36,116 nt of DNA, from assembly GCA_001872945.1 (NCBI GenBank), contig MNYC01000026.1:1-36116 (forward strand), given 5' to 3'. Below, piece after piece: positions 22,855 through 26,009 of the stretch. The first letter of the stretch is position 1. Each line of letters starts with the position of its first letter. The notes below the pieces were generated by a model. The model was not told the DNA's origin and ran no database searches. It saw only the letters and a list, made by a program, of their open reading frames with translations. Both the position numbers and the translations under genes were made by a program. The stretch comes from a bacterium CG2_30_37_16. Lineage in GTDB: Bacteria > Patescibacteriota > CPR2.

Positions 22855-23934
22855 TTATTTAGACGGATAAATTACACCATTTATATTTTTAACTTGACCT
22901 TTAAGTTCCATGCTTGAAACTAAAACGCTTATTTTTGATATGGATCGATTTAGCTCTATTGCCAATTTTTCTATGTCTAATGGAGTTATTAGTGCTGATA
23001 TCAGTTCCCTTTCCGCGTCTGACAGTTCTTGTGTTTTTGAATTTTGATTAGTTAGTAAAATATAATCTTCTAAAATATCATTAGCCGAAGTAACCGGCTT
23101 TGCACCTGTTTTAATTAAGTTATTCGTTCCCCTGGAGTTAAGGCTTAATGGACTTCCCGGAACGCTGTAAACATCCTTGCCAAAATCTAAAGCAAAATCC
23201 GCCGTAATTAAAGCACCGGATTTTTCAGCGGCTTCAACTATAAGAACTCCATCACTTAAGGATGCAATTATTCGATTTCTGCCGACAAAGTGGTATCTCT
23301 GTGTGATAATTCCGGGGGGATATTCTGAAACAATAGTGCTTCCCGTATCAAGTATTTTGTTTGCCAAAGTAATATTGTGTGATGGATAGATACGATCTAT
23401 CGGAGTTCCAAGGACAGCAATAGTCTTACCGCCTCCTTCCAAGCAGCCGCGGTGAGCTTCACTGTCGATTCCTTCTGCAAGTCCGGAAACAATTACCATT
23501 CCGGCTCTAGCTAAAGTGGTGGCAATTTCATTTGTTATCATTCGTCCGTCTGTAGTGACCTTTCTAGCTCCCACAATTCCAATAGCGGGTGTTTCAAGTT
23601 CGAAACTCGGGTTGCCTCTTATGTATAGTAAAATCGGTGGATCGGATATGTTTTTAAGTTTTTCCGGATAATCCTCATCAAATAGTGAAACTACCTTAAT
23701 ATTTTTTTCGCTGAGTGTTTTTGCGATACTCGAAGGCTCAACAATCTTTTTTTGATCAAAATAAATATTTATTTCATTTTCTCTAACGAGGCCGCATTCT
23801 GATAATGTTTTCTTGGAAGCGTTCCAGAAATTTCTTGCAGATTTAAAGTAAGTGAGTAATTTTAAAATAGTGGAAGACGAAAAAAGTTGCATTTTGTCAA
23901 TTGCTATCAAAATTTCTTTATCTTTTTTGTCCAT
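22855..23934 (-). CDS. dprA: DNA processing protein DprA
   Basis: GIVGARKVT, IVSGLAEGIDSEAHRGCL, GRNRIIASLSDGVLIVEAAEKSGALITADFALD. Confidence 0.95.
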   Translation of the reverse strand: MDKKDKEILIAIDKMQLFSSSTILKLLTYFKSARNFWNASKKTLSECGLVRENEINIYFDQKKIVEPSSIAKTLSEKNIKVVSLFDEDYPEKLKNISDPPILLYIRGNPSFELETPAIGIVGARKVTTDGRMITNEIATTLARAGMVIVSGLAEGIDSEAHRGCLEGGGKTIAVLGTPIDRIYPSHNITLANKILDTGSTIVSEYPPGIITQRYHFVGRNRIIASLSDGVLIVEAAEKSGALITADFALDFGKDVYSVPGSPLSLNSRGTNNLIKTGAKPVTSANDILEDYILLTNQNSKTQELSDAERELISALITPLDIEKLAIELNRSISKISVLVSSMELKGQVKNINGVIYPSK

Positions 23935-23958
23935 AAAAACATAATATCACAAAAACCA

Positions 23959-23987
23959 TTGACACAAAAATACTTTTATGTTAACAT
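23959..23987 (+). promoter_or_regulatory. promoter of the structured leader
   Basis: TTGACA (23959-23964), 17 nt, TAACAT (23982-23987). Confidence 0.65.
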
Positions 23988-24022
23988 AACGTAGTTAGTT
24001 GATAATTTAATCGTATTCTTTT

Positions 24023-24150
24023 AACGAAAGCTATGACCCACGACACATTATGTGGTCACCTTATGGTCGCGGGTAGCTAGTGGTGAAATCGGTCGTTTTT
24101 TTTGTTACCTTTTTTAGAAGTAGCAAGCTTTCGTTTAGCTTGCTTTTTTT
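24023..24150 (+). ncRNA. candidate riboswitch-like structured 5' leader ending in an intrinsic terminator
   Basis: AACGAAAGCT (24023-24032) pairs perfectly with AGCTTTCGTT (24126-24135). Terminator is AGCAAGC (24122-24128)-loop-GCTTGCT (24138-24144)-T7. Internal stems AGCTA/TAGCT, CCC/GGG, CGAC/GTCG; possible pseudoknot TCACC/GGTGA. Confidence 0.6.
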
Positions 24151-24220
24151 ATTGAAAAAAGTTCATTTAAGGTGAATTTCTTCCAGTAAAAAAGATTGGA
24201 TCTTAAAAAGGAGGTGGAAG

Positions 24221-25030
24221 ATGGAAAGTTCGACAAAAATTCTTGTTTTTGTTGCAATCTTTTTCGTGGGCATTTTTGCCTACAGTCAAACGTCAATTGG
24301 CGAGAAGCTTACTCAGCTGAAGGAGGTTAAAGAAAAGATTACGGAACTTGCAGACACTAAAACACAAAATAGTTCTGCTAAAACGAATGATATCTACGCT
24401 TACAAAGCTACGTCTAAAAAATATGCGGCTTCTCTATATCTTCATCGGTATGAAGAGCATATCAAGTTAAAAAGTTGCTATAAGAGTCATTTGAGGCAAA
24501 CTAATAATAAGGTAGAGAAAATGGCCATAATAGATGGACTAGTTATGCTTTCGCAGATTTCCGGAATGCCATATGCTGGCTACGAAAGTAATCTAACCGC
24601 TCTTCTTATAAGAGACCAATCTCCATTAGGAAAAAAAAGGTTAAGATTGCACTTTGTGGCATTGGGGTTGGCTAAAAAACAATACCCAAAACAGCAAAAA
24701 AAGGTTTCTATTGCAGGATCTACGCCGGAAATGGATGCTATTGATCCGCTCGTAAGGCTTTATTGGCCGCATAATCCCAATGACGCATTATCTGTATATT
24801 GGAGAGAATCAAGCGGACTACCCTATGAATTAAATCACGGTGGGTGCCAAGATTTTGGCATAACACAGATTAATCTGAAATGGCAAAAGCATTATATGCA
24901 AAAATATGGCTTGACCTTAACAGATCTTTACGATCCGGTAATAAATGTTGCTTTCGGTAGAATTGTTTATTCCAACTGGAAGTGTTCATTTAAACCGTGG
25001 GTAGCTTCAAGAAAATTAGGAATACACTAG
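24221..25030 (+). CDS. lysozyme-like/lytic transglycosylase (SLT fold), N-terminal anchor
   Basis: VYWRESSGLPYELNHGGCQDFGITQINLKW resembles the SLT catalytic Glu region; SD AAGGAGGTGG. Confidence 0.7.
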   Translation: MESSTKILVFVAIFFVGIFAYSQTSIGEKLTQLKEVKEKITELADTKTQNSSAKTNDIYAYKATSKKYAASLYLHRYEEHIKLKSCYKSHLRQTNNKVEKMAIIDGLVMLSQISGMPYAGYESNLTALLIRDQSPLGKKRLRLHFVALGLAKKQYPKQQKKVSIAGSTPEMDAIDPLVRLYWPHNPNDALSVYWRESSGLPYELNHGGCQDFGITQINLKWQKHYMQKYGLTLTDLYDPVINVAFGRIVYSNWKCSFKPWVASRKLGIH

Positions 25031-25772: not shown

Positions 25773-26007
25773 ATGGTTATTAAAAAACCGTAATTTGATA
25801 AGCAAACCCCTCCGTTGTTCGGAGAATTCTGCTAACGAGCGGGACCTTAACCACCCTCCTTAAGGCCACTCGTTAGTATAATTCTCCCAGCAACACGTCT
25901 GCCTAATAATTTTATAGAGGCAGATCAAGTCAATTTGACAGTTGTTGTATTTTGGGAGGCCTTTGCAAACTCGAGAAAGACCCCGCGTAAGCGGGGTCTT
26001 TCTTTTT
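25773..26007 (+). ncRNA. orphan structured small RNA with C-rich apical loop
   Basis: No ORF. P1 GCAAA..CCTCC/GGAGG..TTTGC (25802-25813/25955-25966). Rod GGAGAATT/AATTCTCC, CTAACGAG/CTCGTTAG, CCTTAA/TTAAGG with loop CCACCCTCC. Side hairpin TCTGCC/GGCAGA. Confidence 0.7.
25975..26007 (+). terminator. strong intrinsic terminator of the ncRNA
   Basis: GAAAGACCCCGC-gtaa-GCGGGGTCTTTC followed by TTTTT. Confidence 0.9.
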
Positions 26008-26009
26008 GT

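Follow-up and report, generated by a model that had tools for sequence, protein, structure and literature searches.

The leader upstream of an SLT gene in the window (the whole 36,116-nucleotide stretch analysed here, from the genome of a CPR2 bacterium) is probably a c-di-GMP-II riboswitch that turns off, at the level of transcription, an operon of two genes, which encode the SLT protein and a small membrane protein. As read from its sequence, the locus would place a known riboswitch class in an unusual lineage, where it is predicted to turn off a wall-hydrolase operon. An apparently orphan leader thereby gains a ligand class and a corrected polarity, and an operon that encodes a peptidoglycan hydrolase would be linked to c-di-GMP in an uncultivated CPR lineage. 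The features of the locus are listed in Table 1.

Table 1. Features of the leader and the operon (positions in the window)
Feature	Position	Strand	Basis
Sigma-70-like promoter, TTGACA-17-TAACAT, TG ahead of –10	23959–23987	+	10/12 consensus matches
c-di-GMP-II riboswitch aptamer	24017–24103	+	cmscan RF01786 48.7 bits, RF03169 41.8 bits; covariation
Antiterminator 5' strand AACGAAAGCT (5' strand of the initial annotation's "P1")	24023–24032	+	Exact complement; run-length shuffles
Aptamer P1 5' strand AACGA, common to the antiterminator	24023–24027	+	cmscan alignment; pairs with 24093–24097
Inner helix 5' strand AGC, also in the antiterminator	24029–24031	+	Helix 2, 95.7% of cells paired
Hairpin CCACGAC...GTCGCGG	24038–24072	+	Helix 3, 87% of cells paired; two-sided changes in 7/7 pairs
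Pseudoknot 5' strand TCACC	24056–24060	+	Helix 4, 98.3% of cells paired
Inner helix 3' strand GCT, partner of AGC	24076–24078	+	cmscan alignment; covariation
Pseudoknot 3' strand GGTGA	24082–24086	+	Helix 4
Ligand-contact stretch AAATCGG (C68–A74 of 3Q3Z)	24086–24092	+	Contact mapping; alignment
Aptamer P1 3' strand TCGTT	24093–24097	+	cmscan alignment; covariation, helix 1
Intrinsic terminator AGCAAGCTTTCGTTTAGCTTGCT and U-tract	24122–24151 (hairpin 24122–24144)	+	Hairpin –10.5 kcal/mol
Antiterminator 3' strand AGCTTTCGTT, within terminator 5' arm and loop	24126–24135	+	Exact complement; run-length shuffles
SLT (lytic transglycosylase) gene, 269 aa	24221–25030	+	Pfam SLT match above the cut-off, 23.4 bits
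Second operon gene, small membrane/coiled-coil protein of 178 aa	25048–25584	+	G001 orthologue 72% identical
Strong terminator-like hairpin 3' of the operon	25977–26008	+	Hairpin search

Profile match and covariation place the leader in the c-di-GMP-II class. In a 401-base search, the RF01786 model aligns with the window aptamer over its full length (1–84) at 48.7 bits (E = 7.9e-10), against a curated cut-off of 53.5; the orthologous leader of G001, a genome of the same genus, and the second copy in the window's own genome (G000) exceed this cut-off at 56.7 and 68.1 bits, respectively. The P1, the inner AGC/GCU helix and the hairpin are present in the arrangement of the family, and the helices covary among 23 Patescibacteria copies (score 0.617 vs 0.237 for shuffled alignments; 122 vs 43.7 two-sided cells). 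The TCACC/GGTGA pairing, put forward in the initial annotation as a possible pseudoknot, is the family pseudoknot, with two-sided changes in three of its five pairs across the 23 sequences. The same annotation had recognised no riboswitch consensus and had left the ligand unnamed. Matches to both RF01786 and RF03169 (c-di-GMP-II-GAG) rule out an orphan class, and because the leader matches a known class its ligand can be named. We infer that the window leader binds c-di-GMP. The fold, the pseudoknot and the core contacts are shared with the RF01786 systems of C. acetobutylicum (3Q3Z) and C. difficile, from which the window differs in controlling a peptidoglycan hydrolase operon and in its place in Patescibacteria.

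Filing under the GAG variant was considered and rejected. The window exceeds the RF03169 cut-off (41.8 bits vs 40) and shares the U-A type pseudoknot pair with this model, but scores higher with RF01786. The GAG-model core is GCGAGACCG and that of the window is GUGAAAUCG; the model consensus has ...CGAGACCG, whereas the window has ...UGAAAUCG, with A where the model has G. A G at the A69-equivalent position is the mark of the variant as we deduce it from the RF03169 consensus, and our literature search on the origin of the name yielded a passing mention only. Since this position (24087, in the core GAA at 24085–24087) is A in the window, the aptamer is filed under c-di-GMP-II.

Ligand contacts were mapped through the 3Q3Z sequence, which was compared with the published residue letters. 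The reported contacts are A13, A14, U37, G39, U60, A61, C68, A69, A70, C71, C72, G73 and A74 (PMC7288161, review). Ten of these 13 (A13, A14, U37, G39, U60, A61, A69, A70, C72 and G73) are identical in the window. The C68 equivalent is A and its pseudoknot partner a compensating U, a combination present in 21 of the 23 sequences; the A74 equivalent is G, as in 16 of the 23. The only unusual core base is the C71 equivalent (24089), which is T in the window and C in the other 22 sequences; binding by the window copy may therefore be weaker, with a reduced affinity for c-di-GMP.

This substitution bears on two further readings. It is rather unlikely that the copy is decaying, with binding weakened by the C-to-T change and the leader by now acting largely as a constitutive attenuator: T occurs at 24089 in one sequence of 23, and the window copy is the lower scorer of the two in its genome, but P1, the pseudoknot, the other contacts, the antiterminator and the terminator remain intact, and the orthologue conserves them. 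It is less likely still that U24089 or the CPR2 core is tuned to a related ligand, another cyclic or linear dinucleotide, within the same fold. The reported lower selectivity of the class II aptamer for analogues (PMC11477304), the window's score above the GAG cut-off and the three CPR2 genomes without an intact diguanylate cyclase would fit such tuning. Against it, the A69 equivalent is A in all 23 sequences, the canonical AACCG core is present in the other CPR2 copies, and members of the class precede GGDEF and PilZ genes in the phylum.

The promoter, long-range helix, terminator and pseudoknot of the initial annotation were all found in place. The promoter is the sole sigma-70-like match in 23900–24260; as 1.3 such matches are expected from shuffled sequence, the match alone is weak and its support is mainly positional. 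Its TTGACA is retained in the orthologous leader of G001. The terminator (AGCAAGC-TTTCGTTTA-GCTTGCT, then a T-tract) begins 18 nt past the end of the aptamer and is the one such element found, where 0.2 were expected. The two strands of the long-range helix, which the initial annotation had already named, form an exact 10-bp complement; none of 5000 shuffles of the terminator 5' arm and loop equals the length of this complement to the aptamer 5' strand, and window-wide only 14 of 35,916 10-mers have an exact reverse complement 60–150 nt downstream. Because this helix and the terminator (5' arm and loop) overlap, formation of one precludes the other, which upholds the description of an attenuating, riboswitch-like leader. 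That the elements are chance hairpins without switching is exceedingly improbable: an AT-rich region and a promoter match no better than chance would fit this reading, but the Rfam E-value, the covariation, the synteny in two genera described below and the shuffle result for the complement all speak for a riboswitch.

Where the analysis departs from the initial annotation is in the role of the long-range helix and the polarity. The annotation had taken this helix for the P1 that closes the aptamer, and the leader for an ON switch. The P1 of the class is the local AACGA/TCGTT helix, of which the outer part comprises 5 bp only. Since the long-range helix uses the 5' strand of this P1, it is the antiterminator, and a closed aptamer leaves the terminator free. 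The ligand would stabilise AACGA/TCGTT and AGC/GCT and so consume the antiterminator 5' strand; hence OFF, not ON, is predicted. By sequence logic, the antiterminator competes with the aptamer helices and the terminator lies outside the aptamer, from which we infer OFF polarity for the window leader. At low c-di-GMP, the aptamer would be loose and AACGAAAGCU would pair with AGCUUUCGUU, blocking the terminator hairpin and allowing transcription of the operon. With c-di-GMP bound, P1 (AACGA/UCGUU), the inner AGC/GCU helix and the pseudoknot would sequester the antiterminator 5' strand, so that the terminator hairpin forms and transcription stops.

Folding energies are compatible with either state, as nearest-neighbour folding without pseudoknots cannot settle the balance between antiterminator and terminator. 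Unconstrained folding of 23994–24150 gives the antiterminator form as the optimum (–37.9 kcal/mol); the aptamer-plus-terminator form, with pseudoknot and ligand excluded, has –30.7 kcal/mol, and another fold, with the terminator preserved, comes within 1 kcal/mol of the optimum. When the 5' end is shifted slightly, the optimum becomes a terminator-bearing fold (–38.0), as it is for four of the six leaders folded in that comparison. Because a terminator-bearing fold is thus near or at the optimum, the polarity is read from helix exclusion and not from energies.

The related CPR2 leaders support the OFF arrangement. All seven read as OFF (ligand leading to the terminator). In five of them, the aptamer 5' strand is the pairing partner of the terminator arm or loop. 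The orthologue retains the upstream complement along with the terminator, and the complement tracks the P1 strand in the sibling leaders: the terminator loop matches the aptamer strand as AACG/CGUU in the window and the orthologue, and as AGCG/CGCU in L013. In the other two, L005 and L011, the antiterminator uses the aptamer 3' core (–20.9 and –24.5 kcal/mol, respectively). Pooled over the seven leaders, a run-length test counts 51 paired positions where 25.3 are expected, a total reached in none of 5000 shuffles; the test was framed after the pattern was known in the relatives, so their P values are not blind, whereas the window helix had been named beforehand. A duplex-energy shuffle test gives P = 0.06 for the antiterminator of the window alone; such a short, AU-rich segment makes this test weak for single leaders. 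The terminator search missed the weaker U-tract of L001. Two side observations concern these leaders: the L011 copy, with its long antiterminator, precedes an RNase III-like gene (L011; L015:10889–11731), and TTAACAA is a recurrent motif ahead of the CPR2 aptamers in L001, L005, L007, L010, L011 and L013 but not ahead of the window copy.

An ON switch, in which the ligand would stabilise the helix 24023–24032/24126–24135 and thereby prevent termination, is very unlikely for the window leader. It would share the mutually exclusive helices, class II switches of C. difficile are ON (PMC11477304), and ON arrangements exist among other Patescibacteria, as in G146, G153, G173, G326, G288 and G355, where the aptamer itself supplies the terminator, from its AACCG core and P1 3' strand. 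In those relatives, however, the terminator overlaps the aptamer, while that of the window starts beyond it; and the class P1 of the window competes with the very helix that the ligand would have to stabilise. ON polarity is therefore rejected in favour of the predicted OFF switch, which sets the window apart from C. difficile class II. By comparison, c-di-GMP-I (RF01051) is OFF in C. difficile through c-di-GMP-triggered termination (PMC11477304), a likeness in working only, since the fold is another. RF01051 had no match in ten genomes including CPR2, an absence that is unproven as the control genomes likewise gave no match. The ON-type copies in other Patescibacteria are L036, L038, L039, L040, L044, L046 and L048, several of them before large secreted proteins.

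The lysozyme-like gene that the initial annotation placed downstream of the leader is an SLT gene, with a Pfam match over the cut-off. Its product has an N-terminal hydrophobic segment and a WRESS motif with a candidate catalytic Glu196, and matches EtgA weakly in the PDB (E 0.02). The motif and this weak match hint at a specialised, locally acting transglycosylase, which would presumably open the wall locally at low c-di-GMP. The SLT orthologue in G001 is 59% identical; the small membrane protein, which also has its orthologue there, gave no confident Pfam match. The gene order dprA–riboswitch–wall hydrolase–small membrane protein–pth–engA is conserved in G000 (0.896 Mb, 97.75% complete), G001 and G002, the last representing another genus of the same family, so that synteny of the locus extends to a second CPR2 genus. 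The hydrolase is of the SLT type in G000 and G001; that of G002 combines amidase_2 with SLT. Behind the riboswitch of the distant G030 come a VanY-like plus SLT protein and another small membrane protein. Homology of the small membrane proteins of G002 and G030 to that of the window finds no support in their sequences (23% in a forced alignment, no significant BLAST match); they resemble it in position and general make-up only.

The three CPR2 genomes (97–100% complete) carry two to three c-di-GMP-II riboswitches each; the second copy in the window's genome (L001:1501–1587, G000:C60:6288–6374) precedes a 138-aa protein without a Pfam match. Each genome also encodes exactly one GGDEF protein (L003:1345–1941 in G000:C45, L033 and L032), with RFENDKF or RFETNKF instead of RxGGDEF. 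By the residue roles of PleD-type cyclases, the first metal-site Asp and the guanine-site Asn are lost, and an RxxD just upstream is kept. With this I-site-like RxxD, the degenerate protein is a possible c-di-GMP receptor. No EAL domain was found by profile search in seven genomes including CPR2, nor any PilZ, SMODS or HD-GYP domain in the CPR2 genomes; as these were six-frame profile searches on draft genomes, a missed or unfamiliar enzyme is possible. CPR2 would thus possess the RNA sensor, and perhaps a receptor protein as well, with neither a recognisable synthase nor a recognisable hydrolase; that no intact GGDEF cyclase was found counts against the proposed reading. Should the absence of a cyclase prove real, an unknown synthase must be present, or else these reduced bacteria respond to a signal that others make. 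It is conceivable, if doubtful, that CPR2 bacteria, presumed small symbionts, read c-di-GMP from a host, a neighbour or an unknown synthase to time a wall-cutting enzyme. The open-access literature yielded nothing joining Patescibacteria, riboswitches and c-di-GMP, with subscription papers mostly outside the scope of the search.

Across 381 sampled Patescibacteria genomes, RF01786 was found in 20 and GGDEF in 131. GGDEF occurs in 13 of the 20 RF01786 genomes and in 118 of the 361 others (Fisher p = 0.006, a small test that ignores phylogeny). Half of the RF01786 genomes (10 of 20) have no intact diguanylate cyclase that we could find, seven having none and three a degenerate one; G146, a single contig at 99% completeness, contains RF01786 and lacks any GGDEF match. 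Elsewhere in the phylum, RF01786 copies lie directly upstream of intact GGDEF genes in G031 and G263 (loci L006 and L037) and of a PilZ gene in G284 (L035), which supports c-di-GMP as the ligand in the phylum.
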